Below are positions 32,017-62,594 of a stretch of 64,000 nt of DNA, piece after piece. Under the pieces are notes generated by a model. It did no database searches, had not been told where the DNA came from, and saw only the letters and a program-made list of their open reading frames with translations. This DNA comes from Sphingobacteriaceae bacterium (GTDB lineage Bacteria > Bacteroidota > Bacteroidia > B-17B0 > Aurantibacillaceae): positions 310,001 through 374,000 of the forward strand of contig NVQB01000001.1 in assembly GCA_002319075.1 (NCBI GenBank), read 5' to 3'. Position numbers and translations under genes: made by a program. Within the stretch, counting starts at the first letter, position 1; each line of letters opens with the position of its first letter.

Positions 32017-32081
32017 TGACATTAATCACTTAATTAGCAGACCTACATCACGATGCTGTGCTTACTGCAAGCGTATTTTTG
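32017..32081 (+). promoter_or_regulatory. Island promoter A: USP-Mla operon
   Basis: Distal site TGACATTAATCA (32017-32028), weaker proximal site AGACCTACATCA (32039-32050) 22 bp on, then exactly 23 bp to the perfect -7 box TATTTTTG (32074-32081). The whole element lies inside the longest reading frame of the USP, so it also fixes the start at 32099. Confidence 0.82.
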
Positions 32082-32098
32082 AAGTAAAACTAAAACCG

Positions 32099-32905
32099 AT
32101 GAAAGCAATAATCGCGGGAACAGATTTTACACCCTCATCACAAAATGCTTGTAGATATGCAGCTTTACTGGCATTAAAACTCAATTGCAAGCTAACTATA
32201 TTTAATCTCTTTCAGGCGCCGGTCTTACATTCAAATTCGGGTTTGTATGGGATCTCTTACATGTCTGTAAAAAAGACAAGCGAGAAGCAAGTGGATGAAT
32301 TTATTAAAGATCTTGTCAAAGAATTTCCCTCTCTTAAAATAAGTGCTTTAACAACCACTGGTGCTTTTGAAGAGGAGCTGGAGGTTTTCGTTGCCAGGCA
32401 TAAGGTTGCAGCTGTGGTGATGGGACTCCAGGCCAAAGACAGAATTTCGAGATTTATTTATGGAAGTCATGGCGTTAAAGTCGCAGGAAAAATAAATGCC
32501 CCGGTGATCATTGTTCCGGAGCGTTACAAAGATCATCGTCTTGAAACAATCTTGTTAGCGGTAGATAATGCCGAAAAACTTAAGAATTCATCGTTAAAAT
32601 TACTGGAAGCCTTTTCGACCAATACTCAATCGCAGGTAAAATTGCTGCATGTGCGAACCCCTGAAGAAGTATTAAGCCCGCGAGAAACCAGTTTCGTTAA
32701 GATCAATAAATCGCCTGTAGAAGTAAAAGTAGTAAGATCTAAAACAATAGAAAATGGCATCAGGAATTTTTGCAGCGACAAACAAACAGATCTTGTTACA
32801 GTGATCAGCAAAAAGCATTCAGTGCTTTATAATTTATTCAACGAATCCGTTACAAAGCGTGTATGCTTCACCGCCAATGTACCTGTTCTAGCGATCCATG
32901 AATAA
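32099..32905 (+). CDS. Universal stress protein, tandem Usp domains
   Basis: 268 residues from the ATG at 32099. Two Usp domains (~1-138 and ~142-268): first begins MKAIIAGTDFTPSSQNACRY and carries VVMGLQAK...GSHGVKVAGKINAPVIIVP; second ends VTKRVCFTANVPVLAIHE. Usp proteins bind ATP or AMP and support survival in stasis and hypoxia. It leads an operon with an unknown 106-aa protein and the MlaEFD transporter. The upstream in-frame start at 31994 is rejected because the promoter occupies that stretch. Confidence 0.92.
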   Translation: MKAIIAGTDFTPSSQNACRYAALLALKLNCKLTIFNLFQAPVLHSNSGLYGISYMSVKKTSEKQVDEFIKDLVKEFPSLKISALTTTGAFEEELEVFVARHKVAAVVMGLQAKDRISRFIYGSHGVKVAGKINAPVIIVPERYKDHRLETILLAVDNAEKLKNSSLKLLEAFSTNTQSQVKLLHVRTPEEVLSPRETSFVKINKSPVEVKVVRSKTIENGIRNFCSDKQTDLVTVISKKHSVLYNLFNESVTKRVCFTANVPVLAIHE

Positions 32906-32914
32906 TTTTAAGTG

Positions 32915-33235
32915 ATGGACCTATTACCTGCATACGACATGGCCAGTAAGACCATCAACGCCCTGATTAAAAAAGCATATACCTCTGATTTTTTAATGGA
33001 TCATGAAACGGACTGCCTGCACTGCCAGGAAACAAGCAGGGCTTTATCTCGCAATAAATTCACAATTAATGAGGTTTACAGATTTGAAGGAAACACAGAT
33101 CCGGCAGATGAGATGATCGTTTTTACTATTTCTTCTACTGATAGAAAAAGCAAAGGTTTTGTTGTTAACACGTATGTAATTTACTCCGGTTATAAATCAC
33201 AAAAGCTCGTTGAGCATTTGCCTAAAAAAATCTAA
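32915..33235 (+). CDS. Hypothetical protein in the USP-Mla operon
   Basis: 106 residues, not recognised. It begins MDLLPAYDMASKTINALIKK and has an HETDCLHCQETSRAL stretch with two Cys and a His that could bind metal or respond to redox. The second half resembles an NTF2/beta sheet. A GTG precedes the ATG; I use the ATG at 32915. Its stop overlaps the MlaE start by 1 bp, so it is tightly coupled to the transporter genes. Confidence 0.65.
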   Translation: MDLLPAYDMASKTINALIKKAYTSDFLMDHETDCLHCQETSRALSRNKFTINEVYRFEGNTDPADEMIVFTISSTDRKSKGFVVNTYVIYSGYKSQKLVEHLPKKI

Positions 33236-34775: not shown

Positions 34776-34776
34776 T

Positions 34777-35736: not shown

Positions 35737-35769
35737 AGCTGTAAACCGAGTTTTAAAACGATAAATCTC

Positions 35770-36601: not shown

Positions 36602-37423
36602 TTAATGAATTACAAGTAATGGAGTTTCTAATGTGTACGCGAGCGATTTGGTAACACTTTCTGTGAAAAGTTTTTGAAGCAAGGTGTGTTTTCGGGGGTT
36701 AACCATAACCACATCTGTTTTGTGAAATTTAAAATAATACTCTAAAGCTTTTGAAACATTCTTATCTTCGATATGCACCTGTTTGTGCTTAATTCCCTGC
36801 AGGCGTTTTTCTGCAAACGCGTAGGTTTCGGATTTATCATACACCAATTCTTTATCATTGCCATCAACCGTTACAAGTTCAAGCTCTGCATCAAAAATGT
36901 CCGCGAAATCTCTCGCCGTGTAAAGCAGTGTTCCTTCCTCAATTTTATCCATATCGCATGCAAAACAAATGCTGCTTATTTTCCGGTATCGGGCTGCTTC
37001 AGGTACAATAAAAGTTGGTATTTCCAGATCTCTTGCCACGCTTACAGCTGAGCTTCCCATAATGTGACGTTTCAAAAAGCTGCCTTCCCCTACCATGCCC
37101 ATAACAACTAGCTCGCCACTGTATTTGGCCACTGCATCTGTAAGGGCACCATAAGGAGTGCCCAGGTATGAAAAGCATTCAACACCAAAATCATAATTTT
37201 CTCTGAGAATCTCATCCTTCAATGATTTTAAACTCACCCTTGATGCTTCCTGCAAAGTCGAAATCATATCTAACGGCGCTAAGGAGTCATATCCCGCTAT
37301 GGGGAGCGAATAAGAATTTACGAGTACGAGCTTTGCGCTAAAATGTTTAGCGAGCCCAACCGCATAATTTACTGCGTTTTGTGCCGGCAAAGAAAAGTCT
37401 GTTCCTACGATAATTGTTTCCAT
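36602..37423 (-). CDS. Universal stress protein, tandem Usp domains
   Basis: 273 residues, two Usp domains (~1-138; METIIVGTDFSLPAQNAVNY, VVMGMVGEGSFLKRHIMGSS; ~143-273; SICFACDMDKIEEG, ending SLAYTLETPLLVIH). The ATP-binding loop G-x-x-G-x-x-x-R/K-x-x-x-G-S is retained in the first domain. It has its own island promoter (37435-37499). The predicted transcript starts about 5 nt from the ATG, so it may be nearly leaderless. Confidence 0.92.
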   Translation of the reverse strand: METIIVGTDFSLPAQNAVNYAVGLAKHFSAKLVLVNSYSLPIAGYDSLAPLDMISTLQEASRVSLKSLKDEILRENYDFGVECFSYLGTPYGALTDAVAKYSGELVVMGMVGEGSFLKRHIMGSSAVSVARDLEIPTFIVPEAARYRKISSICFACDMDKIEEGTLLYTARDFADIFDAELELVTVDGNDKELVYDKSETYAFAEKRLQGIKHKQVHIEDKNVSKALEYYFKFHKTDVVMVNPRKHTLLQKLFTESVTKSLAYTLETPLLVIH

Positions 37424-37434: not shown

Positions 37435-37499
37435 TAAAAATATACTTTGCGTTTCCTTATGTACATGATCTTTATTTTCCCTTTCTATGATTCAGATCA
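37435..37499 (-). promoter_or_regulatory. Island promoter B: USP 36602-37423
   Basis: On the minus strand: distal TGATTCAGATCA (37488-37499), weak proximal TGATCTTTATTT (37466-37477) 22 bp nearer, 23-bp gap, -7 box TATTTTTA (37435-37442, last base off consensus). Confidence 0.72.
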
Positions 37500-37514: not shown

Positions 37515-37579
37515 TGACTGATATCATGCATTTCGGTGAGCAAAGTCAATGGTCTTAGTAAGAAAGGCGCGCATCTTTG
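37515..37579 (+). promoter_or_regulatory. Island promoter C: TerB-USP operon
   Basis: Distal TGACTGATATCA (37515-37526), proximal TGAGCAAAGTCA (37537-37548) 22 bp on, 23-bp gap, -7 box CATCTTTG (37572-37579). The predicted start of transcription nearly coincides with the ATG at 37584, implying a leaderless message, or use of the ATG at 37593. Confidence 0.72.
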
Positions 37580-37583: not shown

Positions 37584-37991
37584 ATGAATACAATGAGACC
37601 ACAAGAGAATTTACATTATGCCATTGGTTTAATGGCTTACGCCATTGCAAGGGCAGATGGTGCAGTGCAAAAAGAGGAGCGCCAAAAATTCTTTGACCTG
37701 GTGCACGCCGAACTGAAGCGTGAGCACTATGATTTCGATATTGCTTCGATTATTTTCCAGGTAATGGATAAAGATCAGAGTTCGCTGGAAGACACCTATC
37801 ACTGGGCCATAAATCAGATCAAGGTAAATAGCCATTATTTAAGCCCTTCGCTAAAAACAACTTTTATAAGGGTAATGGAAAAGGTAGCAAAAGCCTATCC
37901 TCCGGTGACCGTAGAAGAGTCATCATTACTTGACAGGTTTAAAAAAGACATTGAACCTCTTCATGGAGATCCGGTTTACTATTCGAAATAA
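37584..37991 (+). CDS. TerB-like protein
   Basis: 135 residues. The N-terminus (HYAIGLMAYAIARADGAVQK, residues ~11-30) and EERQKFFDLV form the first acidic helical pair of TerB/DjlA-type domains (A-x-A-D-G-x-V-x-x-E-E). A second half with DYTHWAIN-like helices follows (DTYHWAINQIKVNS). TerB proteins bind metal at membranes and link to stress responses. It leads an operon with a USP, a membrane protein and a nuclease fusion. Confidence 0.75.
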   Translation: MNTMRPQENLHYAIGLMAYAIARADGAVQKEERQKFFDLVHAELKREHYDFDIASIIFQVMDKDQSSLEDTYHWAINQIKVNSHYLSPSLKTTFIRVMEKVAKAYPPVTVEESSLLDRFKKDIEPLHGDPVYYSK

Positions 37992-38012: not shown

Positions 38013-38855
38013 ATGGGATTAGTAATATTAGTACCTACAGATTTTTCAAGGGCGGCCAGAAATGCCATTAACTATGCCACAGAAATGGCAAAACGTATGA
38101 AAGCGAAACTTGTTTTACTTCATGTGTATCTTCCTCCTGTGCCAGTGTCGGAAGTTCCCATGATAATTCCGCTCCCCGCTGAATCCGAAACATACATTCT
38201 TAAAAAGTTAAAGCGCATTAAAAATGATCTTCTTTTAAAACGAGGAAATAAAAACCTTGAAATTGAAACCGTTTGCACCAGTGGTGTGCCCGTGGATGAG
38301 ATTTATTTATACAGCCTGAGCCAAAAAGTGGATTTTGTTGTTATGGGCATGCAGGGTAAAGGTTTTTTGAAAGAAAAATTAATGGGTAGCACCACAACAA
38401 GTCTTATTCAAAAATGCGAGGTTCCCGTTTTAACCATTGACAAAAGCATAAGTTTTAAAAATCCTAAGAAAATTGTCTTTGCCAGTGACAGTAAAGGGAT
38501 ATTTAGCAGAGAGACTTTACATCCTCTCTCACAGGTCTGTTCGGTTTACAGATCCCACATCTATGTTTTGAACGTTGTAATCTCTTCTGCCTCCTTACCT
38601 GGTGCAGATGTTATTCATAATAAAAACATTCGTACTAGTTTCAGAAACTTTGATCATAGTATTCATCAGATCATAAGTGTTTCAGTGCAGCAGGGTCTAA
38701 GTGATTTTGTCGCAGCTAAACATATGGACATGATTGTTATGATCCCGCACCACCATAGTTTGATAGAGAGGGTAATGGTCGGAAGACAAACGAAAGAGAT
38801 GGCTTTCCACTCCACTGTTCCATTACTTACGCTTCACGAAAAATTAATGCTTTAA
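38013..38855 (+). CDS. Universal stress protein, tandem Usp domains
   Basis: 280 residues, two Usp domains: VILVPTDFSRAARNAINYAT start, VVMGMQGKGFLKEKLMGSTT (~110-130) in the first domain, ending MAFHSTVPLLTLHEKL. The ATP-binding glycine loop is intact in the first domain and degenerate in the second (MIPHHHSLIERVMVGRQTKE). It is 21 bp after the TerB-like gene. Confidence 0.9.
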   Translation: MGLVILVPTDFSRAARNAINYATEMAKRMKAKLVLLHVYLPPVPVSEVPMIIPLPAESETYILKKLKRIKNDLLLKRGNKNLEIETVCTSGVPVDEIYLYSLSQKVDFVVMGMQGKGFLKEKLMGSTTTSLIQKCEVPVLTIDKSISFKNPKKIVFASDSKGIFSRETLHPLSQVCSVYRSHIYVLNVVISSASLPGADVIHNKNIRTSFRNFDHSIHQIISVSVQQGLSDFVAAKHMDMIVMIPHHHSLIERVMVGRQTKEMAFHSTVPLLTLHEKLML

Positions 38856-38871: not shown

Positions 38872-39330
38872 ATGTTTAAATTATTTTTCCGAAAGCCTCA
38901 GATCTTCTTTTTAGGAATTTCGCTCATAACCTTATTGGCAGGCATAAATTATTTCTATTATTACCCGGAAGCTTATTTCGACTTAGGAGGTGATTTTCAA
39001 CTTACTGTAAGTTGTGCTACCTGCTGGTTCACATTTTCCGGATATACCCTTACACTCTCCGGAATTTATTACACGGCCTCTAAAGGAGAGTTAAAGACCC
39101 GTCATTGGCTGGTGATGTTGCATTTTATTTTTGTTATTTTATTTCTGTTGTTATTTTTTGCCATCAGCTCCTTTAATACGCCCTATGTGCAAAAACATGT
39201 TTCAGGCATGCCCTTCTTTTCACTGGTCTTTATTTATGCGGTAGTATTTTTCTTAGACCTGATCTTCTTCATTATTAGTCTGATTTTACTATTGGTAAAC
39301 ATTCTATCATTCAAAAGGCCGGGATCATGA
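38872..39330 (+). CDS. Four-helix membrane protein, unknown
   Basis: 152 residues with four hydrophobic helices and a short charged loop (ASKGELKTRHWLVMLH). The second helix region holds the sequence SCATCWFTFSGYT with a C-x-x-C pair near the membrane face. Function unknown. Its stop overlaps the nuclease-fusion start by 4 bp. Confidence 0.7.
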   Translation: MFKLFFRKPQIFFLGISLITLLAGINYFYYYPEAYFDLGGDFQLTVSCATCWFTFSGYTLTLSGIYYTASKGELKTRHWLVMLHFIFVILFLLLFFAISSFNTPYVQKHVSGMPFFSLVFIYAVVFFLDLIFFIISLILLLVNILSFKRPGS

Positions 39331-41567: not shown

Positions 41568-41632
41568 CAAATTTACTGAGGCATTTGCCGCAACAGCGTA
41601 AGCAGGGTCACAAAACAAGGTGATTCTGCTCA
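41568..41632 (-). promoter_or_regulatory. Island promoter D: USP 40687-41547
   Basis: Minus strand: distal TGATTCTGCTCA (41621-41632), weak proximal TAAGCAGGGTCA (41599-41610) 22 bp nearer, 23-bp gap, perfect -7 box TAAATTTG (41568-41575). Confidence 0.75.
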
Positions 41633-42629: not shown

Positions 42630-42839
42630 TTAAACTAAACGCTTGATCCTGGTAAGCATTTTATCCCGGGTAACTCTTGACTGTTGTGCACTGGTGTTTT
42701 CTCCGGGCATCCATTTTCCGGCGTAGTACCTGATCGCATGATCGCTCCGGCAGATGATGTAGCGAAGGCAAACGATGAACAACACGATGAGAGCCGGAAT
42801 AATCATGAGTAGCTTACGGCTCCTTCGTGTCATTTTCAT
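42630..42839 (-). CDS. Small single-pass membrane protein, first gene of the PFK operon
   Basis: 69 residues: basic N-terminus (KMTRRSRKLLMI), one membrane helix (IPALIVLFIVCLRYII) and a charged tail. A perfect island promoter is positioned just upstream, which supports it as a real gene even though no family is recognised. Confidence 0.65.
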   Translation of the reverse strand: MKMTRRSRKLLMIIPALIVLFIVCLRYIICRSDHAIRYYAGKWMPGENTSAQQSRVTRDKMLTRIKRLV

Positions 42840-42853: not shown

Positions 42854-42949
42854 CAAATGTAAAGTCGCATGCACCTATAGCGCGTGATGGCAATCATTTC
42901 AAGAGGTGATCTAGATCATCCGGCTCTTGGTTATTTCGGTGTTGCTTTG
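42854..42949. promoter_or_regulatory. Symmetric divergent island promoters E (minus) and F (plus)
   Basis: Two good sites, TGATGGCAATCA (42885-42896) and perfect TGATCTAGATCA (42907-42918), 22 bp apart. To the left, 23 bp on, is the minus-strand -7 box TACATTTG (42854-42861) for the PFK operon; to the right, 23 bp on, is TTGCTTTG (42942-42949) for the L,D-transpeptidase. The same operator pair therefore serves both directions, each promoter taking the nearer site as proximal. Confidence 0.85.
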
Positions 42950-44252: not shown

Positions 44253-44317
44253 AGACATCTATCATATACGCATATGACCCAGATCAGGACCCTTCGGGCT
44301 GTATATGATTATTATTG
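44253..44317 (+). promoter_or_regulatory. Island promoter G: RR-Crp regulator (autoregulation)
   Basis: Weak distal AGACATCTATCA (44253-44264), proximal TGACCCAGATCA (44275-44286) 22 bp on, 23-bp gap, -7 box TATTATTG (44310-44317). The regulator gene itself thus carries the island operator. Confidence 0.75.
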
Positions 44318-44341: not shown

Positions 44342-45391
44342 ATGGTACAAAAAATTCTTATAATTGATGATAACGCCGAAGTGCTTGAGAATACCTCTGA
44401 ACTTCTGCAACTGGCGGGCTATGACACGATAACCAGCTGCAATGGCAAAGAAGGGCTGGAAGTAATTAGAACGCATAAACCTGATCTGATTCTTTGCGAC
44501 ATTAATATGCCAGTACTGGACGGCTATGGGGTACTGCAGGCCCTTCAAAACATTCCCAGTGCTGCCACTATTCCCTTTGTTTTCCTTACCTCAAAGGCGG
44601 AGATGTCTGACATGAGGAAAGCGATGGATCTTGGAGCAGACGATTATCTTACAAAACCTTATACAGGAGATGGCTTATTAAAAATTGTTTCAGCGCGTAT
44701 TAAAAAAAGCAGTCTTTTAAAGAAGATCATGGAGGAAAGCCAGGAATATACAGGATCGTCAAATGAGCAGACTGATCATCATATCCTACTTGAGAACAAA
44801 CCGATAAAAAAAATACGAAAAAAAGGATTTGTTTATTCTGAGGGTGATTCAGCAGGTTCACTTTATTTTTTGAAGTCTGGAAAATTAAAGATCTATAAAT
44901 CGAACGAGTATGGGAAGGATTATATTATAGACCTTCTAAAGGAGGGTGATTTTTTTGGGTATACGGCTTTACTCGAAGATTCGGAACACAAAGAATCGGT
45001 AATGGCTATTGAGAACTCTGAAGTGGTGATGGTTCCTAAGCAAGATTTCCTGCATTACCTATACGGAGATAAAGCTATGTCTATTACTTTTATAAAACTT
45101 CTTTCTAAAAATTTAACTGTTGCTGAAGATAAGTTGATCAAACTCGCTTATAACTCGGCGCGTAAACGCGTGGCGGAAGCCTTGCTTTTTTTTGCAGGAA
45201 AGTTTAGAGCTGATAATAAGAATGAAATTACCTTTGAGCTTAATCGCGAAAATCTTTCCTCTCTGGCCGGCATTTCGCCTGAATCCGTAAGCAGGCATCT
45301 TACTGATTTTAAAGACGAGGGATTATTAGAAAGCAACGGTGGAGCAATGAAGATCTGCGATGTAAAAAAGTTGGAAAATATAAAAAATTAG
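44342..45391 (+). CDS. Receiver-cNMP-Crp/Fnr fusion regulator (candidate island master regulator)
   Basis: 349 residues. Receiver ~1-120 with DDN pocket, phosphoacceptor Asp53 (LILCDINMP) and Lys in LTKPYTG (~103). Linker, then a cNMP jelly roll (~150-245; GFVYSEGDSAGSLYFLKSGK). C-terminal Crp HTH (~270-349) with recognition segment SPESVSRHLTDFKDEG: E-x-x-S-R, the FNR pattern for reading TGAT. It lacks FNR iron-sulfur cysteines, so the input is probably phosphorylation. It is under its own operator type and followed by a terminator. Confidence 0.93.
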   Translation: MVQKILIIDDNAEVLENTSELLQLAGYDTITSCNGKEGLEVIRTHKPDLILCDINMPVLDGYGVLQALQNIPSAATIPFVFLTSKAEMSDMRKAMDLGADDYLTKPYTGDGLLKIVSARIKKSSLLKKIMEESQEYTGSSNEQTDHHILLENKPIKKIRKKGFVYSEGDSAGSLYFLKSGKLKIYKSNEYGKDYIIDLLKEGDFFGYTALLEDSEHKESVMAIENSEVVMVPKQDFLHYLYGDKAMSITFIKLLSKNLTVAEDKLIKLAYNSARKRVAEALLFFAGKFRADNKNEITFELNRENLSSLAGISPESVSRHLTDFKDEGLLESNGGAMKICDVKKLENIKN

Positions 45392-47623: not shown

Positions 47624-47688
47624 CAAAGTTAGGCTCCTTTTTTTCGCGTGGATATGATAGAGGTCATTTAAAGAAATGATTGACTTCA
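47624..47688 (-). promoter_or_regulatory. Island promoter H: receiver and Na/Pi genes
   Basis: Minus strand: proximal TGATAGAGGTCA (47655-47666), distal TGATTGACTTCA (47677-47688) 22 bp away, 23-bp gap, perfect -7 box TAACTTTG (47624-47631). The box ends 5 bp from the start codon. Confidence 0.82.
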
Positions 47689-51007: not shown

Positions 51008-51072
51008 CAAAGTAAAACCAACAAAGGGCAGATGGAAATGATCCTTATCACCAGCTTTGTTGATCTTTGTCA
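51008..51072 (-). promoter_or_regulatory. Island promoter I: YtxH operon
   Basis: Minus strand: proximal TGATCCTTATCA (51039-51050), distal TGATCTTTGTCA (51061-51072) 22 bp away, 23-bp gap, -7 box TTACTTTG (51008-51015). Both operators are strong. The distal site touches the stop of the upstream USP gene. Confidence 0.85.
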
Positions 51073-52962: not shown

Positions 52963-53027
52963 CAAAAGTAATCTGGTAAGTATATTTCTCACATAATTTT
53001 GCTCACGTGGTCAGGTGATCTTTGTCA
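52963..53027 (-). promoter_or_regulatory. Island promoter J: coiled-coil/USP operon
   Basis: Minus strand: distal TGATCTTTGTCA (53016-53027), weak proximal TAATTTTGCTCA (52994-53005) 22 bp nearer, 23-bp gap, perfect -7 box TACTTTTG (52963-52970). Confidence 0.78.
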
Positions 53028-53329: not shown

Positions 53330-53372
53330 TGATTTAGATCAGGGCAGGAACTTTAATTAATTTCTAATTTTG
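53330..53372 (+). promoter_or_regulatory. Island promoter K: PAS histidine kinase
   Basis: TGATTTAGATCA (53330-53341), 23-bp gap, perfect -7 box TAATTTTG (53365-53372). No convincing second site 22 bp upstream. The box covers the ATG at 53370, so the kinase must start downstream, at 53424. Confidence 0.82.
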
Positions 53373-53423: not shown

Positions 53424-54998
53424 ATGACACAAACAACACATCTTTTCTCGCCTGGTGAGACTGCTTTTGCCCAGATGTTCCTCAGTGCGTCTGTTGGGAT
53501 TATTCTTGTGAACGAAATGGGCTGCATTGAATATTTAAATCCTTACGCGGAAAAATTATTTGGGTATACGGCTGCTGAGTTAACAGGGTTTAAGGTGGAG
53601 AAATTAGTCATGGAAAGATTCCATAGTAAAAATATCCGTTATAGGGAGATCCTGTTTAAAAGACCTGCAGCAAAGATCAACACCCAGGGAATTCACCATC
53701 AGGCTTTGTGTAAAGACGGCTCCCTAGTTGCTGTTCATGTTTCTGTAAGTCGTTATACATACAATGGCTCCGAAGTAATGACTGTTTTTGTTAACCGAGT
53801 TACAAGCCAGTTCCGTGAACACGAACAACTAATAATGAAAGAGCAGAGTATTCGTTTGTTTGTAGAACACACGCCCTCTGCTGTTGCCGTATTCGATGAG
53901 AAAATGCGTTATCTTACCGCCAGTAAACGCTGGATTGAAGACTACCACTTAAATAGTGATAATATCATCGGGCTTTCGCACTACGAAGTGTTCCCCGATA
54001 TACCAGGGCGCTGGAAAGAAATTCACAGGCGCGGCCTCAACGGAGAAACATTGCACTGTACTGAAGACAGTTTTGAAAGATCAGATGGAAGAAAAGAATG
54101 GGTGAGCTGGGAGCTTTGTCCATGGTACACCTATTCTGGCGCCATCGGAGGGATCGTTATTTTTTCAGAGGTTGTCACAGGCCGGAAGCAAGTGGAAGAA
54201 GAGCTTCGTAAACTTAACGAAGAGCTGGAACAAAAAGTGGTAGAGCGTACAGTGTTACTGGCACATGCTCTCCAAAGAGCGAATGAAACAAATGAGATGA
54301 AAAACGCTTTTGTATCTATGGCCTCTCATGAGTTCCGCACGCCGCTGAGCGCTATTCTTTCCAGCGCGGCCATTGCTGAAAAATACAAAGAGAAAGAGCA
54401 ACAGGATAAACGTGAAAAACACTTTTTAAGGATCAAGTCTTCGGTTATGCACCTGGTAGATATTCTTGACGATTTTCTTTCACTTGAAAAACTGGAACAG
54501 GGCAATATAAAGTCAGAAAAACTGATCTTTAACCTGGATGAGCTCATGCAGAACACGATCGATGAATTCAGTGAGATTTTAAAAAAAGATCAGGTGATTC
54601 GTTACACTTATGCCGGTGAAACGCACGTGCTTCTGGATAAAAAGATCCTGCGAAACATTATGCACAATCTTTTATCGAATGCGATCAAATACTCCGATGC
54701 TGCCATTGATTTGACTGTAGATGTGAAAAAACAGGAGGTTCATATTCAGGTGAGGGACCGGGGAATTGGGATTCCTGCAGAGGATCAAAAAAATATATTC
54801 ACTAAGTTTTATCGGGCTAAGAACGTATCGTACATTCAAGGTACAGGACTAGGCCTTAACATGGTTAAAAATTATATTAATCTCCTCGGCGGAACAATTG
54901 AATTTTCAAGCCGTGAAGGCGATGGTTCACTTTTTTCTATCCTCCTCTATTCTCATCATGGCGGGACACAACACTTTGCATGCGAGGTAACTGATTAA
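53424..54998 (+). CDS. PAS-domain sensor histidine kinase
   Basis: 524 residues from the ATG at 53424: PAS 1 (~10-115; ASVGIILVNEMGCIEYLNP), PAS 2 (~150-250; HTPSAVAVFDEKMRYLTASK, WVSWELCPWYTYSGAIGGIV), coiled coil, HisKA with SHEFRTPLSA, and HATPase with NLLSNAIKYSD, DRGIGIP and GTGLGLNM. No membrane helix, so a cytosolic sensor of redox, O2 or small molecule. Good candidate for phosphorylating the RR-Crp regulator, since both carry the same operator. Confidence 0.93.
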   Translation: MTQTTHLFSPGETAFAQMFLSASVGIILVNEMGCIEYLNPYAEKLFGYTAAELTGFKVEKLVMERFHSKNIRYREILFKRPAAKINTQGIHHQALCKDGSLVAVHVSVSRYTYNGSEVMTVFVNRVTSQFREHEQLIMKEQSIRLFVEHTPSAVAVFDEKMRYLTASKRWIEDYHLNSDNIIGLSHYEVFPDIPGRWKEIHRRGLNGETLHCTEDSFERSDGRKEWVSWELCPWYTYSGAIGGIVIFSEVVTGRKQVEEELRKLNEELEQKVVERTVLLAHALQRANETNEMKNAFVSMASHEFRTPLSAILSSAAIAEKYKEKEQQDKREKHFLRIKSSVMHLVDILDDFLSLEKLEQGNIKSEKLIFNLDELMQNTIDEFSEILKKDQVIRYTYAGETHVLLDKKILRNIMHNLLSNAIKYSDAAIDLTVDVKKQEVHIQVRDRGIGIPAEDQKNIFTKFYRAKNVSYIQGTGLGLNMVKNYINLLGGTIEFSSREGDGSLFSILLYSHHGGTQHFACEVTD

Positions 54999-55163: not shown

Positions 55164-55628
55164 TTAAGCTACCTTAATTTCTTTCTTAAGGCTGGCTATC
55201 GTCTCTTCCTTTTTTGGAAGCGTTAACTTCAGGATGCCATCCTGGTAATGAGCATCTATTTTATCCGGCAACGAATTGTCAGGTACAACAAAAGAACGTG
55301 AAAAACTTTGATATGAAAATTCTCGGCGACAATAATTGTTCTTTTCCTCTTTCTCTTCCTGTTTTTTCTCTGCGCTCACTGTCAGTAAACCGTTTTCGAC
55401 TTCAATTTTAAAATCTTTTTTCTCAAGACCGGGCGCCGCCATCTCAATAGAAAAGTCTTTTGTGTTTTCTGAAATGTTTACAGAAGGCGCAAAGGCTTGC
55501 TTATTTTTAAAGAAGTTGCCATTAAAGTCGGCAAGTCCGTAATTAAAAAAATCATTGTCAAAAAAATCGTTGACAAGTCTTGGGAACAAACTCCCGTTCC
55601 CGTTTGGTTTTGATTTTACCAGCGTCAT
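55164..55628 (-). CDS. Hsp20/alpha-crystallin small heat-shock protein
   Basis: 154 residues: variable N-terminus (SLFPRLVNDFFDNDFFNYGL), alpha-crystallin domain (~48-140; PSVNISENTKDFSIEMAAPG, YQSFSRSFVVPDNSLPDKID, AHYQDGILKLTLPK) and C-terminal tail with I-x-I-like KKEIKVA. Holdase chaperone. Promoter L upstream is one of the clearest in the island. HspX, a DosR-regulon marker, is of this family. Confidence 0.95.
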   Translation of the reverse strand: MTLVKSKPNGNGSLFPRLVNDFFDNDFFNYGLADFNGNFFKNKQAFAPSVNISENTKDFSIEMAAPGLEKKDFKIEVENGLLTVSAEKKQEEKEEKNNYCRREFSYQSFSRSFVVPDNSLPDKIDAHYQDGILKLTLPKKEETIASLKKEIKVA

Positions 55629-55669: not shown

Positions 55670-55734
55670 CAAAGATAATGGCCGTATAAAATCATAAGAA
55701 TGACGACGGTCACATGCCCCAGTGATCTTAAACA
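55670..55734 (-). promoter_or_regulatory. Island promoter L: hsp20
   Basis: Minus strand: proximal TGACGACGGTCA (55701-55712), weaker distal TGATCTTAAACA (55723-55734) 22 bp away, 23-bp gap, perfect -7 box TATCTTTG (55670-55677). Confidence 0.85.
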
Positions 55735-55742: not shown

Positions 55743-56312
55743 TCAGGTGTTCAGGAAAACAGTTTTACTTTTTGTCATTTTAGAGTAAAATTCAATTTCA
55801 GGTTTTTCCTTTCGTGTAGTGTTAATGAGATGTTCCATACTGATCCAGACAAGGAACCAGCCTGCAGGTTCAAAGACAACAAGTAAGATATGCAGCGAGA
55901 CTGTTTGCGATTTCATAGACGAAATATAACCGGCGCACACCATCATAAAAATGCCTATCAGGCTCAGCATCACGTCCTTTTTTCCTTCCGTCTTTTTTTT
56001 CTTTTGAAAATAATGAAGGTTCTTAATAAAATGTCCGTGCAGACGTTTGGTAATAATAGTTTCTGATGTTTTGTCCCTGGCCCTCTCTGGCAAAAGCAGT
56101 CTGAGTTCGTCAATATGAGAGTCTGTTTCATGCGAGAGTTTCCTCAGCTCACGAAGAAAATCATCTGAAATGTTCCGGGAAGTGTAAGGCCGGAGATCAA
56201 AGTCGGAGAAGATGTCGTCATAGCAATCCACCCACAAACTAATGTTCGATGCCGCGTTCTGTTCCTGAACCTCTTCTTCCTCGTCATGTGAATGTTTTAT
56301 CAGTTGTAACAT
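55743..56312 (-). CDS. Membrane protein, unknown
   Basis: 189 residues: acidic N-terminus (HSHDEEEEVQEQN), a soluble helical part (DDIFSDFDLRPYTSRNISDD), then two membrane helices (LSLIGIFMMVCAGYISS; ILLVVFEPAGWFLVWIS). Not recognised. It lies 9 bp after the 56322 gene and shares promoter M. Confidence 0.65.
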   Translation of the reverse strand: MLQLIKHSHDEEEEVQEQNAASNISLWVDCYDDIFSDFDLRPYTSRNISDDFLRELRKLSHETDSHIDELRLLLPERARDKTSETIITKRLHGHFIKNLHYFQKKKKTEGKKDVMLSLIGIFMMVCAGYISSMKSQTVSLHILLVVFEPAGWFLVWISMEHLINTTRKEKPEIEFYSKMTKSKTVFLNT

Positions 56313-56321: not shown

Positions 56322-57002
56322 TTACTTTATAACCATTAGCCTGCTGTCTCTTAATACATTTGTTTTCCACATCTCATAGCGAAAGAAACGTATTTCAGCT
56401 AAAACATGCTTTAAAGAACCAGCCCAGTAATTTCTTAAACCAAAACCTGAAGGTGCGCCCGAGCAATAGTCGCTGAAAAGGATCTTGTGTGTTTTGATGT
56501 CAAAAAACACCACCCAGAAATTTCCCTTCCTGTAGGATTTATCAAAACTTTCTACAATAAGAACCAGTCCCAGGCCGTCTTTCCGGCTTCCTTCGGGATA
56601 GGCAGAAACCATGGCGCCAAGCTGATCCTTGTGCAGCATGCAACTGTTGTAGGTGAGAATGCCCTCTGGATTTATTTTTGAATTCAAGTTCGCAACAGGT
56701 TGTATCTCATAAAAAATACTGGTTTTACGAAAGGTGTTTTTAAGATCAAAATTTCTCGGCTCATCCAGCACGAGTTGGTTCCATGCGGGTACGTAGTAAG
56801 AAATAAGTTCGTTGGCGCTGGTGGGTTTACTGTCGAAGCCATCGTCAAACTTTCCGATGAACTTTGCACCGGTAAAATCAAGGCCGTACCAAACCAGCTC
56901 GTTGTTTGTAAAAATAGCATTGGCACTTAGTTGTGCATGGCTTGTTTGTGAAAGAGACACAACCAGTGTAGTAATGAGGAGCAACATTTTGAAGGTTTTC
57001 AT
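56322..57002 (-). CDS. Secreted protein, unknown
   Basis: 226 residues with a signal peptide (LLLITTLVVSLSQTSHAQ), then a beta-rich body (VWYGLDFTGAKFIGKFDDGF, FWVVFFDIKTHKILFSDYC). It is a periplasmic protein of unknown role, the first gene behind promoter M. Confidence 0.68.
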   Translation of the reverse strand: MKTFKMLLLITTLVVSLSQTSHAQLSANAIFTNNELVWYGLDFTGAKFIGKFDDGFDSKPTSANELISYYVPAWNQLVLDEPRNFDLKNTFRKTSIFYEIQPVANLNSKINPEGILTYNSCMLHKDQLGAMVSAYPEGSRKDGLGLVLIVESFDKSYRKGNFWVVFFDIKTHKILFSDYCSGAPSGFGLRNYWAGSLKHVLAEIRFFRYEMWKTNVLRDSRLMVIK

Positions 57003-57051: not shown

Positions 57052-57116
57052 TAAAAATACCGCGCAGATCTTCCAGGGTAAATGATCCAGGTCACTGGTA
57101 GAGATGATATACTGCA
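57052..57116 (-). promoter_or_regulatory. Island promoter M: 57002/56312 genes
   Basis: Minus strand: proximal TGATCCAGGTCA (57083-57094), weak distal TGATATACTGCA (57105-57116) 22 bp away, 23-bp gap, -7 box TATTTTTA (57052-57059, last base off). Confidence 0.75.
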
Positions 57117-57117: not shown

Positions 57118-57717
57118 TTAGGGCTGCTGCGACAAAGCATAGAGATGATTAACCATGAATGTCTTACGTGTATCGTCATAAACACTGAGATCTCTTTCGG
57201 TCTGTATGTTACAATTCACAAGTTGCAGAAATTTTTGATTGCCTGAAAAAGTGCTCCTTATGTTTTGCAGCGTCAAAGGCAACAGAGGTCCGTCTGGTCT
57301 TACAGCAAAATAAAAAATGCGCTCGCTATTAAAAGAAGTGCCGTTAGATACATTCTCTTCCAAAAAATAAATGCTTAAGTCCCTTATCTCAGCGAGCTGA
57401 AACTCCTGGTTGCAGTAAAACCGAAACATGTTTCCTTTGCAATCCTGGTAACCAAAAAGTTCATCTTTAAATAATTTGATCTTTCTGCCTTTGTAAAAAA
57501 CTTCTACAAAAGGCTTCTGCATAAAATCATGCAACCTGATTTTTTGTTTTTCCATGCTGCAATCTATCTGGTAGGACAGCCTTCCGTTTGTAAAATCATC
57601 GTAAGATGCATAAATACCTGCAAGTGTAGAATCCTTTACTGGGGTTTGAGCCATTGAGTTTTGGCAAAAAATCAAGACGAGAAAAAAAGAGATCAATAAC
57701 CTGCGATTATTTTTCAT
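57118..57717 (-). CDS. Secreted protein, unknown
   Basis: 199 residues from the Met at 57717 (MKNNRRLLISFFLVLIFCQN, signal peptide ending SMAQ). A beta-rich mature part with SLAGIYASYDDFTNGRLSYQ and FGYQDCKGNMFRFYC. Not recognised. The 35 extra residues from 57822 lie over the intergenic space and are dropped. It is downstream of the thioredoxin-like gene. Confidence 0.68.
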   Translation of the reverse strand: MKNNRRLLISFFLVLIFCQNSMAQTPVKDSTLAGIYASYDDFTNGRLSYQIDCSMEKQKIRLHDFMQKPFVEVFYKGRKIKLFKDELFGYQDCKGNMFRFYCNQEFQLAEIRDLSIYFLEENVSNGTSFNSERIFYFAVRPDGPLLPLTLQNIRSTFSGNQKFLQLVNCNIQTERDLSVYDDTRKTFMVNHLYALSQQP

Positions 57718-57752
57718 GGCGCGTAAGGTTTTAAATTCCTTTAAAGGGATCA

Positions 57753-58163
57753 TTATCTTTTTATAAAATACTTTAGCTGTTCCATGATCTTCTCTTTTTC
57801 CTGGAAGCCCACGCGGTTCCATACCATAGTGCCATCTTTATATAAGATAAGAGCTGGCAAAGCATCTATCTCAAAATATTCTGCAATAAGGGGATTGCTT
57901 TCCATAGTAATGGAGAGTAGTTCTGCATCAGCGCCGGTTTCTGAAAACACCTGCTTAAGCACGGGCATCTGCCTTTTACACACCACACACCAATTTGCAC
58001 TAAAGTAAACTAACAAAGGTTTGTTGGTGGTTTTGATGCGCCGGTTAAACTGATCAACGGTCATGCCTACCGGTCCTCCCGATATGGTGCTATCCACCTG
58101 ATGTCCCTGGCTAAAAGACAAAAAACTAAACAGGGTCAATAGAATGCTGAAGATAATTTTCAT
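57753..58163 (-). CDS. Secreted thioredoxin-like protein
   Basis: 136 residues from the Met at 58163. Signal peptide (IIFSILLTLFSFLSFSQ), thioredoxin fold with active site WCVVCK (~C66/C69) and the cis-Pro in EIDALPALILYKDG. A periplasmic disulfide reductase or isomerase. A perfect TAnnTTTG -7 box (58257-58264) lies upstream without an island operator, so it may have its own promoter or depend on read-through. Confidence 0.85.
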   Translation of the reverse strand: MKIIFSILLTLFSFLSFSQGHQVDSTISGGPVGMTVDQFNRRIKTTNKPLLVYFSANWCVVCKRQMPVLKQVFSETGADAELLSITMESNPLIAEYFEIDALPALILYKDGTMVWNRVGFQEKEKIMEQLKYFIKR

Positions 58164-58256
58164 GTTTAGTTGTTTGCCGCGCATGTATATCGCAGCTGTT
58201 AAAGTAGTTGAAAATGGTATGAGTTGCATATTCATTTTCTCATGGTTTAATTATGG

Positions 58257-58264: not shown

Positions 58265-58266
58265 TT

Positions 58267-58995
58267 TTATAAACTCTCACTTTTTTTATTTAACACGGTG
58301 TCCATGATTTTGATTTTATCAATTTTTCTTGTGCAAAAAAACCAATCATGACAGGTCATTTCCGTTTTGCTTTCCATTCGTTCTTTTGCTACACCACAAG
58401 ATCCGGCTGTTGGAATGATTACATCGTCGCCCGGTTGCCAGTCTGCAGGTGTTGCAATGGAGAAGGCGTCTGCCGCCTGCATTGCAATTAAAGCTCTATA
58501 AAGTTCCGCGAAATTGCGACCAAGACTTAAAGGGTAATAAATTATTGCGCGAATAATTCCCTTGGGATCAATAAAGAAAACTGCGCGAACGGCTTTGGTA
58601 CTGCTTTCGCCAGGCATTACCATACCATACTTTTTAGCTACCTCCATAGTTATGTCTTCAATCAAGGGAAATTTCACCTCAATATCCTTCATACCTTTAT
58701 ATTCAATCTTCTCCTTAATAGTTCTTAACCAGGCTATATGACTGTAAAGGCCGTCTACAGATAAACCAACTAATTTGCAATTGGCCTCGTTAAATTTACT
58801 TTCCATGCTTGCAAAGGTCATAAACTCAGATGTGCAGACCGGCGTAAAATCTGCGGGATGGCTGAACAGTATAACCCAGTTACCTTTATAGTCCGCAGGG
58901 AAATTTATGTTCCCTTGTGTTGTTATTGCATTAAATTCAGGTGCGGCTTCGCCAATCCTTGGCATATATACTTTTTGTTCAGTTGCTGTTTCCAT
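58267..58995 (-). CDS. 1-Cys peroxiredoxin (Prx6-like)
   Basis: 242 residues. Peroxidatic motif HPADFTPVCTSEF (Cys ~54), then a Prx6-type middle (KVRAVFFIDPKGIIRAIIYY-like: KAVRAVFFIDPKGII) and long C-terminal part (WQPGDDVIIPTAGSCGV). Reduces H2O2 and organic peroxides; archaeal Prx6-like enzymes are close in length. Its promoter N carries the island operators. Confidence 0.93.
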   Translation of the reverse strand: METATEQKVYMPRIGEAAPEFNAITTQGNINFPADYKGNWVILFSHPADFTPVCTSEFMTFASMESKFNEANCKLVGLSVDGLYSHIAWLRTIKEKIEYKGMKDIEVKFPLIEDITMEVAKKYGMVMPGESSTKAVRAVFFIDPKGIIRAIIYYPLSLGRNFAELYRALIAMQAADAFSIATPADWQPGDDVIIPTAGSCGVAKERMESKTEMTCHDWFFCTRKIDKIKIMDTVLNKKSESL

Positions 58996-59022
58996 CTTCT
59001 TATTTATTTAGTTTATAGCAAT

Positions 59023-59087
59023 CAAAAGTAGAGTATAAAGAAGTCCTGAAGCATGATGAATTTCAGTAGCATCTATGATCTTAATCA
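59023..59087 (-). promoter_or_regulatory. Island promoter N: peroxiredoxin
   Basis: Minus strand: strong distal TGATCTTAATCA (59076-59087), proximal TGATGAATTTCA (59054-59065) 22 bp nearer, 23-bp gap, perfect -7 box TACTTTTG (59023-59030). Confidence 0.8.
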
Positions 59088-59311: not shown

Positions 59312-60181
59312 CTAACTAAATTTTAATAAGCTACTGATGTCGATCTGGTTGCTGGAATGCACGATCGTATTGGTGGTAACTATCTGTGCTGCTCCTGCGT
59401 TCTTCAACTCCTGGTAAGCATCGCCTGCAAAGATGCCATGTACACCAATGCATACAGGCGCCTGAGTACTGCGTTTTTTTAGCTGCAGAACGGTTTCAAT
59501 CATTGTTCTCGCGCTTGAAATAATGTCATCTACCAAAACGGGAGTAATACCGTTTAAGTTAATATCAGCTGGAATAACTATTTCCACTTGCTTGTCACCA
59601 ACCCGGCTTTTATTCAGGAAAGTATAAGGGGCATCGCAGTGCGCCGCCACCTGTTTCACCCACTGCTCGCTTTCACTGTCAGGTCCGATAATAAAAGGTT
59701 TTTTCACATGGGTCTTAATCCAGGCAGCGATAGGTTCGGCAGCGCTGCACACTTTGGTTTTAACAGAATATATTTCCTTTAGCGAATGAATACGGTGAAG
59801 ATGCGGATCAATCGTGACAATCTCATCCACCATAGAGGATAAAAGTTTCGCAAACTCTGCCGAAGTAACACCTTCTCCCTGATGGAAGATTTTATCTTGT
59901 CGCATGTAAGGAAGGTAAGGGCTAATTAATGTGATCGTTGCCGCCTTCATCGATCTGGCAATTTTTGAAAAAAAATAAATGGGCATTATTTTTTCATCCG
60001 GTTTATAAAGTGAACACACCATTACCACATGTTTGCCACATACGTCTGATTGAATGCGTATATAACTTTCTTCATCTGGAAAACGCCGCATTTGCATTGC
60101 TCCTGTGCTGCAATTGGCAGTAAGGGCCAATGCACGTGTTAATTGTTCGTTACCGGGAAAAGCGAAATAAATATGTTCCAT
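59312..60181 (-). CDS. PRPP-synthetase-like phosphoribosyl enzyme
   Basis: 289 residues, archaeal/class III-like length. The ATP-binding flexible loop region PYLPYMRQDK (~86-95), DPHLHRIHSL (~122-131) and the PRPP loop VDDIISSARTM (~215-225) are recognisable, as in ribose-phosphate pyrophosphokinase. It is 1 bp from the AMP phosphorylase gene stop, so the two form an operon. It would make or use PRPP from ribose phosphate released by nucleotide breakdown. Confidence 0.8.
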   Translation of the reverse strand: MEHIYFAFPGNEQLTRALALTANCSTGAMQMRRFPDEESYIRIQSDVCGKHVVMVCSLYKPDEKIMPIYFFSKIARSMKAATITLISPYLPYMRQDKIFHQGEGVTSAEFAKLLSSMVDEIVTIDPHLHRIHSLKEIYSVKTKVCSAAEPIAAWIKTHVKKPFIIGPDSESEQWVKQVAAHCDAPYTFLNKSRVGDKQVEIVIPADINLNGITPVLVDDIISSARTMIETVLQLKKRSTQAPVCIGVHGIFAGDAYQELKNAGAAQIVTTNTIVHSSNQIDISSLLKFS

Positions 60182-60182
60182 G

Positions 60183-61685
60183 TTAGCGGATAGTAATAAT
60201 ATCAGGTTGCTGTTTTAAATAATCCAAAGCATAATGTAATTCGCCGGAGGCCTGTGCATAAACATAATACAGTACGTCTCCTTTTTTCAGAGGTGTGCCT
60301 ACCGGACATAATAATACTACACCTGCCCCTGGTTCCTTAGGGGCTCCGGCAAGCTTAGCTACTTTGGCAAGTAGCCGGTTATCAATTTCCTTTACCACTC
60401 CATCTCTATTAGCACGTACCGCTTTTTTGTACCGCGCCGGTTTTGGTTTTTTCATGCCACCCTGTGCTAAACAAATAGCTTCGAACTTTTTGTAAGCAGA
60501 TCCATTTTCGAGGATCAAGAGTGCAGCAGCGAACCCTTTCCCCGACCTCACTTTGCCTACAAGTTCAAGAATCTCACCTGCAATCATCACCGATCTGTTT
60601 TTAAGATCTTGCGGGGCGCCTTTTTCGTTTTTTAAAACACTCAGTACATCCAGGGCTTCCAGCGCGGGCCCTACCCCACGCCCTATTGGCTGCGAACCGT
60701 CAGTGATCAAAATTTTTACTTTTAGATTCAGCGAGGCAGCCACTACTTTAAAATAATATTTTAATTTTTCAGCATCTTCTTTTGTGCGCACCTTTGCTGT
60801 TTTGCCAACCGGAATGTCAATCACCACATGCGTAGATCCCGCTGCACTTTTTTTAGACAGTACTGAGGCGATCATCTGGCCGTAGCTGTCAATATCGAGA
60901 GCGCGTTCGATGCGGATCAGAATTTCGTCTGCAGGGCTTAGTTTTACAGTACCTCCCCAGCTCAGGCAGCCATTTTCGGCGGCAATCACTTTCCTTATCT
61001 TAGCAGTGTCCAGTTCAACATAAGTAAGTGTCTCCATGGTATCCGCTGTTCCCGCAGGTGAGGTGATAGCGCGGGAAGATGTTTTTGGAATCTTGATTCC
61101 GGCAGCAGCTACAATCGCTACAACTATTGGACTGGTGCGGTTCCCGGGCAGACCACCTACACAGTGTTTGTCAGCCACTATTTTACTGTTCCAAGTTAAA
61201 GTACGACCCGAACCTACCATGGCTCTCGTTAAAAAAGTAATTTCTTTCAGACTGAGGTTGTCTCCTGCGCATGCCGTAATAAATGCAGACAACTCCACAT
61301 TCGAGTAACGGCCTTCAACAACATCTTGCAGTATCTCCTTAAAATTAATTTCGGAAAGCTTTTTGCCGTACATTTTTCCCCGAACGTATTTCATAGAGTC
61401 TACCGGCGCACAATGTGAAAACCGAATGAGGTCGCCTTCCCGGGCATTTAAGGCTTTCCAGGCGCTTTCCGATAAACCAGCCTCACCCTCTTTTAATATG
61501 CCGTTATCAATAATGTTTAACGAAGCGATCAGCGTTTTTTTATTCACCCTTACTTTTACGCGGTTAAGTGATGAAAATCCCTCAGATTTATGTATGGGGC
61601 AATCCTTAGGCATAAACACGATGTGTTCTATCTGCGCGTCAATGTGCAGCCGCTTTAATTTCAAAGAATTGGAATTTCGTTTCAT
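60183..61685 (-). CDS. AMP phosphorylase / thymidine phosphorylase family
   Basis: 500 residues, like archaeal AMP phosphorylase and longer than bacterial DeoA. An N-terminal beta extension (~1-90) is followed by the nucleoside phosphorylase alpha domain (DKHCVGGLPGNRTSPIVVAI, ~167-186), TSSRAITSPAGTADTME (~200), and C-terminal alpha/beta with G-A-P-K-E-P-G. It would phosphorolyse AMP (or another nucleoside monophosphate) to base and ribose-1,5-bisphosphate. In archaea this feeds RuBisCO; no RuBisCO is in the window, but the PRPP-type partner is adjacent. Confidence 0.88.
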   Translation of the reverse strand: MKRNSNSLKLKRLHIDAQIEHIVFMPKDCPIHKSEGFSSLNRVKVRVNKKTLIASLNIIDNGILKEGEAGLSESAWKALNAREGDLIRFSHCAPVDSMKYVRGKMYGKKLSEINFKEILQDVVEGRYSNVELSAFITACAGDNLSLKEITFLTRAMVGSGRTLTWNSKIVADKHCVGGLPGNRTSPIVVAIVAAAGIKIPKTSSRAITSPAGTADTMETLTYVELDTAKIRKVIAAENGCLSWGGTVKLSPADEILIRIERALDIDSYGQMIASVLSKKSAAGSTHVVIDIPVGKTAKVRTKEDAEKLKYYFKVVAASLNLKVKILITDGSQPIGRGVGPALEALDVLSVLKNEKGAPQDLKNRSVMIAGEILELVGKVRSGKGFAAALLILENGSAYKKFEAICLAQGGMKKPKPARYKKAVRANRDGVVKEIDNRLLAKVAKLAGAPKEPGAGVVLLCPVGTPLKKGDVLYYVYAQASGELHYALDYLKQQPDIITIR

Positions 61686-61771
61686 AATTGAGTTAATACA
61701 CTAGCTAATAGTTAGCGGGTTTAATCCGTGAAGGATCAATGATCCGTTTTAATGAGACAAATGAATTAATA

Positions 61772-62443
61772 TTAAAGTGCCTGAACCAAATTTGCAGGAA
61801 CATAAGATTTTTTGATTTGATGCATCACGGCCAATACAGTAATACTTATTACAGATGCAAAAAAGCACCACACGGAAACTATATAATCCTCGTAAAAAAT
61901 AGCGGTGATGATATAGGAGATGAGGATCGCCATGCCCACACTCCACATGCGTTTAATGCCCGAGAAAAAAGGTGGTACGATGGTAGCAATGACGTACAAT
62001 ACGCCTCCATAGCGGCTGAGCCCGGCGGGATAATCCTGCTGATAGGAAATATGCAGCCCAAGAATTTTTGCCTCCACGTAATAAGAAATGAGGCAGTACG
62101 CCAGGTACAAAGAGACACTGGCCCCAAGAACGGTGAGTATCCTTTCTATTTGTTTTCGCTTTCGGTCTCGTTCCAGTTTCAAAATTGAGTAGGGTACCCA
62201 AAAGGGCCAGACTATCTGCGCAAAAAACAGGAATGTATAAGTCATAGGCCACCGTAAAAAGCTCCAGCCTTGATACGTGAGTGAGAGCCACACAAAGCCC
62301 TCAGATATCTGCTGTATTCCGAAGATCAGGGGTATGCTTGCAAACAGCAATTGAGAACTGTGTTGGCTTTTTTTGATGGAGGCCACTCCGATTGTTACCA
62401 GGACAATACCTGCTCCAAAACTTGCATTGGCGGAAAAACACAT
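61772..62443 (-). CDS. DUF6629-like membrane protein
   Basis: 223 residues with six to seven hydrophobic helices. It opens MCFSANASFGAGIVLVTIGV, the MCFSA-x-ASF start typical of DUF6629. Function unknown. Lies 86 bp upstream of the AMP phosphorylase gene and behind promoter O; the three genes may form one transcript. Confidence 0.8.
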   Translation of the reverse strand: MCFSANASFGAGIVLVTIGVASIKKSQHSSQLLFASIPLIFGIQQISEGFVWLSLTYQGWSFLRWPMTYTFLFFAQIVWPFWVPYSILKLERDRKRKQIERILTVLGASVSLYLAYCLISYYVEAKILGLHISYQQDYPAGLSRYGGVLYVIATIVPPFFSGIKRMWSVGMAILISYIITAIFYEDYIVSVWCFFASVISITVLAVMHQIKKSYVPANLVQAL

Positions 62444-62530
62444 GGACGTAATTTTAAATTATGGCTGATGATTTCTGCAAATACTAATCTGCGGGACGTC
62501 TTTGCAATTACCTTTCCCGCTTCCTAAATT

Positions 62531-62594
62531 CAAAGGTAAGTGCGTCCTAAATCTATCAGATGATATCTCTCATGCATTAACATGAAATACATCA
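62531..62594 (-). promoter_or_regulatory. Island promoter O: DUF6629/AMP phosphorylase/PRPP operon
   Basis: Minus strand: proximal TGATATCTCTCA (62561-62572), distal TGAAATACATCA (62583-62594) 22 bp away, -7 box TACCTTTG (62531-62538). Spacing to the -7 box is 22 bp rather than 23; otherwise like the others, but both sites are weak. Confidence 0.55.

Follow-up and report, generated by a model that had tools for sequence, protein, structure and literature searches.

What unites the promoters that crowd into one half of a 64,000-nucleotide stretch of a Sphingobacteriaceae bacterium genome, and which regulator would read them? The stretch (C1:310001-374000; hereafter the window, meaning its whole length) is part of a 5.65-Mb genome in two contigs, and its second half holds fifteen promoters in which FNR-like palindromes, usually two, precede a -7 box at fixed distances. 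These promoters probably belong to one low-oxygen survival regulon spread over two islands of the genome, the low-oxygen signal being a prediction, and a fusion of a receiver domain with a CRP-type regulator (RR-CRP, of which the genome has two, RR-CRP1 and RR-CRP2) is the likeliest candidate for the regulator of the paired sites.

The layout was scored on both strands as a composite with 22 defined bases, made up of a pair of TGAY-N4-RTCA sites and the TAnnTTTG box, the period being the distance between the two palindromes and the gap that from the proximal palindrome to the -7 box. All fifteen promoters named in the original prediction are present where it had placed them, and the double-site layout described as usual for them holds for 13 of the 15, with a period of 22, a gap of 23 and scores of at least 19/22. 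The two departures are those already foreseen: at 53330 an exact single-site composite is accompanied by an upstream copy matching at just 4 of 8 bases, and at 62531 the gap is 22 bp, at which the score is 20/22. The string TGAY-N4-RTCA-N23-TAnnTTTG, given as the general layout, is exact in only four of the fifteen, the layout being kept when mismatches are allowed; nine -7 boxes are perfect and six have five of the six bases (37435, 37515, 42885, 44253, 51008 and 57052). Twelve of the 13 second-half composites scoring at least 19/22 are intergenic; the remaining one, at 51008, runs 3 bases into the 3' end of the adjacent gene. The first 32 kb, for which two isolated palindromes out of phase with a -7 box had been reported, holds six exact ones (6512, 18392, 18967, 19027, 27549 and 31475); none is in phase with a box or followed by TAnnTTTG within 80 bp, and no composite of 18/22 or better occurs in that half of the window. 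Two of the six (18967-18978 and 19027-19038, 60 bp apart) lie upstream of a plain CRP/FNR gene at 18237-18932, whose product has an E..VR recognition helix.

Against shuffled sequence, the comparison by which the original prediction had proposed to be judged, the 13 second-half composites at 19/22 or better stand beside 200 dinucleotide shuffles that average 0.015 and never exceed one, and none is found in the reversed sequence. When period and gap were varied over the second half, on a grid where a perfect palindrome pair needs just three of the six box bases to pass 19/22, period 22 gave 1, 3, 13, 4, 3, 1 and 3 composites at gaps 21 to 27; periods 20, 21, 23 and 24 gave none at any gap from 19 to 27, period 19 gave two and one at gaps 26 and 27, and period 25 gave two at gap 23. 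The genome-wide search that had been called for, allowing up to three mismatches over the 5.65 Mb and using the reversed pattern as control, returned 38 double-site matches (some of them, near 4318100, being register-shifted readings of overlapping sites) and no reversed ones; the exact single-site pattern occurs 14 times, and never in reverse. All but one of the 38, at 3993254, fall in two islands, C1:342-392 kb and C1:4.298-4.339 Mb. The regulon thus exceeds the fifteen promoters of the window, with 37 composites over two islands.

A palindrome centred at -41.5 occupies the classical activating place of class II promoters. In the start-site map published for Flavobacterium psychrophilum, the sigma-A -7 box is placed at -12 to -5 (PMC9723704), and the proximal site would therefore span -47 to -36, with its centre at -41.5 and that of the distal site at -63.5, in agreement with the centres first proposed. 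The class II-type position applies to the 13 window promoters with a 23-bp gap and to the one-site promoter at 53330, as measured on the start map of a flavobacterium and not of this organism, and these promoters carry the TAnnTTTG box that, near the start, characterizes a Bacteroidota sigma-A promoter. The proposal that a single regulon has its FNR-type palindromes at the distance of class II promoters, with a further site two turns upstream, is supported by the genome-wide search, the shuffles, the relatives and the published map. A logo of 120 matches, in which the motif columns were themselves selected, has no -33 element in the 23-bp spacer, where the sole preference is a T beside the proximal site; A-rich DNA lies just upstream of the distal site. 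Some site pairs are read in both directions, 22 among 175 composites with at most three mismatches, as at 42885-42918 in the window.

The same design recurs among relatives, in three sets: 80 Bacteroidota loci holding an RR-CRP gene (the named loci, chosen as the best 80 from at least 575 relatives), 87 family genomes, and 296 genomes of the class that are at least 90% complete, the motif being matched in the family at no more than two mismatches. In the named loci 93 matches occur at period 22 and gap 23, in 44 of the 80, and none in the reversed loci; the neighbouring spacings give 12 (23/23), 8 (22/24) and 7 (22/22), and every other cell of the grid holds 0-3. Box and ATG are separated by a median of 26 nt (92 of the 93 sites). 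From exact palindromes in these loci, TAnnTTTG lies 23 bp off 50 times and 45 bp off 44 times, against 0.38 per other gap. The family yields 505 matches in 71 genomes (three reversed), and the class 1102 in 188 genomes (five reversed), 57 of the latter number belonging to a repeat in the genome G350. The 57 look-alikes of the double-site pattern in that genome (contigs C1-C20) come from a dispersed repeat of TGTTGATAATTGTCAACAGATC type. The stretches compared with a close relative, G003, hold 37 composites of this genome and 44 of G003, and 19 of the 37 precede a gene whose reciprocal best match in G003 also has a composite. In these orthologous promoters 345 of 817 non-motif columns are identical and 377 of 418 motif columns agree; since both sets were chosen by the motif, the latter figure was not used as a test, and the evidence of conservation with G003 consists of the common downstream genes and the unselected columns.

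The genes behind these promoters point to the nature of the signal. In the window they comprise five Usp genes, Hsp20, a nitroreductase, a phosphofructokinase, a peroxiredoxin, a thioredoxin and an L,D-transpeptidase, together with a single-domain response regulator and a Na/Pi cotransporter, a PAS kinase, RR-CRP1 itself, and a thymidine-phosphorylase-family gene with a ribose-phosphate diphosphokinase. Elsewhere in the islands, composites stand before more Usp and Hsp20 genes and before the fused cbb3 oxidase gene CcoNO, whose composite has three mismatches and a box 211 nt away. Others precede a gene for a 2-hydroxyacid dehydrogenase that resembles D-lactate dehydrogenase but stays under the NCBIfam cut-offs, and a Usp gene with a decarboxylase and HemN (above its NCBIfam cut-off) close behind. 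In the named loci the genes after the sites, judged by eye only, include those for Usp, Hsp20, cbb3 oxidase, acetate kinase, a CcoI-like ATPase, D-lactate-dehydrogenase-like enzymes, kinases and RR-CRP. Low oxygen is the predicted signal because Usp, Hsp20, cbb3 oxidase, HemN, the D-lactate-dehydrogenase-like enzyme and nitroreductase stand together among the predicted targets.

Both RR-CRP genes lie within the islands behind the same type of promoter. RR-CRP2 (C1:4319501), whose kind is the more widespread in the family, stands directly behind a kinase gene, and a 22/22 composite precedes the pair. The phospho-acceptor column is Asp in 80 of 81 RR-CRP sequences, with one gap, and the recognition helix has E and R in all 81, the residue between them being I (45), S (31), N (4) or A (1). 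In the tree the fusions group as a single clade, save one very long branch, and no solved structure spanning both the receiver and the CRP parts is among the 60 matches listed. The only Cys residues of RR-CRP1 are those at 33, 52 and 339, of which C52 alone is invariant in 10 orthologs; with only three the protein lacks an FNR-type [4Fe-4S] cysteine cluster. In 62 of the 80 named loci a histidine kinase gene stops no more than 400 bp upstream of RR-CRP, and in 34 of the 80, all relatives, there is a FixL-type PAS with HDxY, the best solved match of one such PAS (locus L082) being FixL 1dp6 (3e-31). Of 63 kinases (the 62 and that of this genome), 59 could be aligned to FixL; the haem-position His is kept in 55 of these, His and the distal Arg in 49, and all three residues checked in 21. 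The kinase before RR-CRP2 (C1:4318272-4319495) is this genome's only FixL-type PAS match at E<=1e-10.

The presence of RR-CRP tracks the motif, though not exclusively. In the class, a match occurs in 127 of 145 genomes with RR-CRP and in 61 of 151 without (odds ratio 10.4, Fisher P 9e-18, uncorrected for kinship). In the family, 70 genomes with an RR-CRP match have a mean of 6.7 motif matches and 17 without have 2.2, the first group including fragment-only genomes (e.g. G001, G002, G035 and G072) and the second still including G066, G017 and G063; seven family genomes at least 90% complete and lacking an RR-CRP match at E<=1e-20 have two motif matches together. G066 was set aside as a case of motif without regulator, as it carries a fragment 75% identical to RR-CRP2 at a contig edge.

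Several observations weigh against the fusion as the regulator. The class association takes no account of kinship, and candidate scoring covered just seven per genome. Among the 61 class genomes with the motif and no detected RR-CRP, 33 have at least three matches (G350 being an artefact), while 18 of the 145 with RR-CRP have none; G017, a draft in 630 contigs, has 16 matches and no RR-CRP was found in it. The matches in G217 and G336 look real, and there plain CRPs of a separate clade, with a recognition helix close to that of RR-CRP2, adjoin the motif sites. This genome codes for 10 Crp-type helix-turn-helix (HTH) proteins, its two fusions differ in the recognition helix (S in RR-CRP1, I in RR-CRP2), and the kinase before RR-CRP2 (26% identity) has H, G and K at the three FixL positions; only the His being kept, haem is not claimed for it. 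The notion that RR-CRP is the sole possible binder was rejected as too strong, the motif persisting where no RR-CRP was detected, and the fair reading is that the cis design predates the fusion or reaches beyond it, RR-CRP being its commonest partner. It is a further step, and an unlikely one, to suppose that one or more plain CRP/FNR proteins are the main activator and the fusions have some other or auxiliary part. Candidates for such a role, all with the E..xR recognition helix, are the window gene at 18237-18932, with its two exact upstream palindromes, and the genes at C1:446682, C1:4288258 and C1:3343256, and the motif sites of G217, G336 and the genomes without RR-CRP speak for them. Yet RR-CRP presence strongly predicts the motif, in the class and in the seven family genomes, the RR-CRP genes sit inside the islands behind the very promoter in question, and plain CRP proteins probably occur in many genomes regardless.

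Two other explanations concern the sites themselves. That the pair acts as a brake, the distal site activating and the proximal one repressing, is very improbable as against a cooperative activator: the proximal site keeps its fixed gap to the box at the classical activating place, the layout precedes target genes at large and not the regulator gene alone, and exact phase is kept by both sites in the named loci and the window grid. Such opposed action has a precedent in the dual anaeroboxes of Rhizobium leguminosarum fnrN, of which the distal is described as activating and the proximal as repressing (PMC7888657). The second is that repeats, or chance in intergenic sequence rich in A and T, produced the pattern. 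A dispersed TGTTGATAATTGTCAACA-type repeat does account for the 57 matches of G350. For the present genome this explanation is given almost no credence and was rejected on the shuffle, reversed and spacing-grid controls, all near zero; the window spacers also vary between sites, and the orthologous promoters of G003 agree at just the 345 of 817 non-motif columns given above.

The explanation favoured here, and held to be probable, is a low-oxygen regulon with fixed paired-site promoters, driven by a PAS kinase through the receiver-CRP fusion. The cis grammar, the islands, the conservation and the neighbourhood of kinase and regulator are directly visible in the genomes; the remainder is a prediction from them. 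The PAS histidine kinase would phosphorylate the fusion, most likely at low oxygen, and the phosphorylated protein would bind as a pair of neighbouring dimers along the same face of the helix. So bound, it may stand in for the absent -33 contact in the manner of class II activation and switch on transcription, and the response would reinforce itself, since the RR-CRP gene carries the same promoter. The arrangement would amount to FixL-FixJ-FixK with the receiver of FixJ and the DNA-binding part of FixK merged into a single protein. The genes driven would be of FixK type (cbb3 oxidase, HemN) plus a dormancy-type set (Usp, Hsp20, nitroreductase). A more far-reaching and tentative proposal is that a one-piece FixJ-FixK operates across much of Bacteroidota, in which an oxygen-sensing FixL-type kinase phosphorylates a receiver-CRP protein active only on paired sites at -63.5 and -41.5, as an independently evolved counterpart of the mycobacterial dormancy regulon. 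Under that proposal two sites would be required because the receivers, on dimerising, have to link two neighbouring CRP dimers. The pair would then act as a cooperative switch gated by phosphorylation, and, each site being a palindrome, one pair could fire two divergent promoters.

The rhizobial cascades FixL-FixJ-FixK and hFixL-FxkR-FixK resemble this regulon in a FixL-kind PAS kinase, a receiver, an output of the CRP/FNR family and a cbb3 oxidase target, and FixK-type sites are described as TTGAT-N4-ATCAA-like (PMC7888657). A FixL-type haem PAS kinase beside the regulator, as in that cascade, is found in the relatives (the 34 loci mentioned). Unlike the cascade, receiver and CRP output are here fused, with no separate NarL-type FixJ activating a separate fixK, the TGAY-N4-RTCA sites stand as pairs of fixed spacing ahead of a -7 box of Bacteroidota type, and many Usp and Hsp20 genes are among the predicted targets. 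The mycobacterial DevR/DosR regulon, described as some 50 genes including Usp, nitroreductase and heat-shock proteins (PMC5069765), has closely packed paired sites that are bound cooperatively, the proximal one lying over -35 (PMC3029386); the phased double-site design, for which the original prediction knew of no described case, is thus not unprecedented. The present regulon works like DevR/DosR (and Streptomyces OsdR), with a response regulator, paired sites including a promoter-proximal copy, and Usp, Hsp20 and nitroreductase targets, but is not a member of it: the HTH is of Crp type and not of NarL/LuxR type, the site is unrelated, and phylum and promoter type are others. With E. coli FNR/CRP class II promoters it has in common the palindrome centred at -41.5 and the E..xR recognition helix, which is the helix code of FNR; unlike FNR, RR-CRP1 is predicted to sense through phosphorylation and not through a cysteine cluster, and unlike at those promoters, a second site at -63.5 is the rule. 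The lxa locus of Burkholderia cenocepacia is rich in Usp genes, and we know of no paired fixed-distance sites or receiver-CRP regulator there, although no detailed search was made. Activation by low oxygen, predicted here, is reported for lxa, which belongs to another phylum and is important in anoxic survival (PMC3759415). In Myxococcus, the NmpRSTU phosphorelay is thought to sense oxygen limitation and to raise oxygen-utilisation genes (PMC11841059), but unlike this regulon it uses an NtrC-like regulator and sigma-54 promoters. No account of a receiver-CRP oxygen regulon, or of such a paired design in Bacteroidota, was found in open-licence PubMed Central.

Transcription control is little known in Bacteroidota beyond the gut lineages. 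The present work yields a promoter rule that is precise and can be counted, together with a list of genes and a kinase and regulator as candidate pair, by which the response to low oxygen of Bacteroidota from soil and water (Mucilaginibacter, Pedobacter, Saprospiraceae and flavobacteria) may become predictable from sequence. It also offers a case of convergence, in which a dormancy-type gene set comes under paired phased sites with a NarL-type regulator in Mycobacterium and, by the reading favoured here, a CRP-type one in this lineage. The features of the window are collected in Table 1.

Table 1. Promoters and regulatory genes of the second half of the window (window coordinates; scores are defined bases matched of 22; ORF, open reading frame).
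Position	Strand	Feature	Support
32017..32081	+	Double-site promoter, operon Usp (start codon ~32099), then MlaE, ABC ATPase, MlaD	21/22; box-ATG 17 nt; same layout at G003 ortholog; Pfam
37435..37499	-	Double-site promoter of Usp 36602-37423	19/22; kept in G003
37515..37579	+	Double-site promoter of TerB-like 37584-37991, Usp 38013-38855 and genes after	20/22; kept in G003; Pfam (TerB slightly below cut-off)
41568..41632	-	Double-site promoter of Usp 40687-41547	19/22; kept in G003
42854..42918	-	Double-site promoter of small ORF 42630-42839 and phosphofructokinase 41639-42622	22/22; both sites common to divergent promoter
42885..42949	+	Divergent promoter on the two sites of 42854, for YkuD (L,D-transpeptidase) 42991-44226	21/22
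44253..44317	+	Double-site promoter of the receiver-CRP regulator's own gene (predicted autoregulation)	20/22; 24 nt to ATG; kept in G003
44342..45391	+	RR-CRP1: receiver, cNMP (cyclic nucleotide)-binding fold and Crp-type HTH, 349 aa; candidate activator	Pfam, alignment
47624..47688	-	Double-site promoter of single-domain response regulator 47257-47619 and Na/Pi cotransporter-like 45476-47194	21/22; kept in G003
51008..51072	-	Double-site promoter of 75-aa ORF from ~50998 and genes down to nitroreductase 48631-49587 and cupin 47732-48628	21/22; Pfam
52963..53027	-	Double-site promoter of 52330-52944, 51906-52301 and Usp 51070-51909	20/22; kept in G003
53330..53372	+	Single-site promoter of PAS histidine kinase gene	Exact single-site composite; upstream copy 4/8
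53424..54998	+	PAS-PAS-HisKA-HATPase histidine kinase; ORF listed from 53370, first start after -7 box ~53424	Pfam
55670..55734	-	Double-site promoter of Hsp20 55164-55628	21/22; kept in G003
57052..57116	-	Double-site promoter of 56322-57002 and 55743-56312 (no Pfam match)	19/22
59023..59087	-	Double-site promoter of peroxiredoxin 58267-58995, thioredoxin 57753-58235 and 57118-57822	21/22; Pfam
62531..62594	-	Double-site promoter, gap 22, of DUF6629 61772-62443, thymidine phosphorylase family 60183-61685 and ribose-phosphate diphosphokinase 59312-60181	20/22; Pfam, NCBIfam

The 500-aa product of 60183-61685 is like archaeal AMP phosphorylase, scoring 489 bits with the AMP phosphorylase model against a cut-off of 535, and this gene and the ribose-phosphate diphosphokinase gene (59312-61685) may perhaps serve nucleotide salvage in survival. 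Just beyond the edge of the regulon, at 62660-63127, lies a gene for a BLUF blue-light sensor, with no composite of its own in these scans. Between the promoters, 39327-40190 codes for a 287-aa protein that joins an ATP-cone domain to an Mrr-type endonuclease domain.

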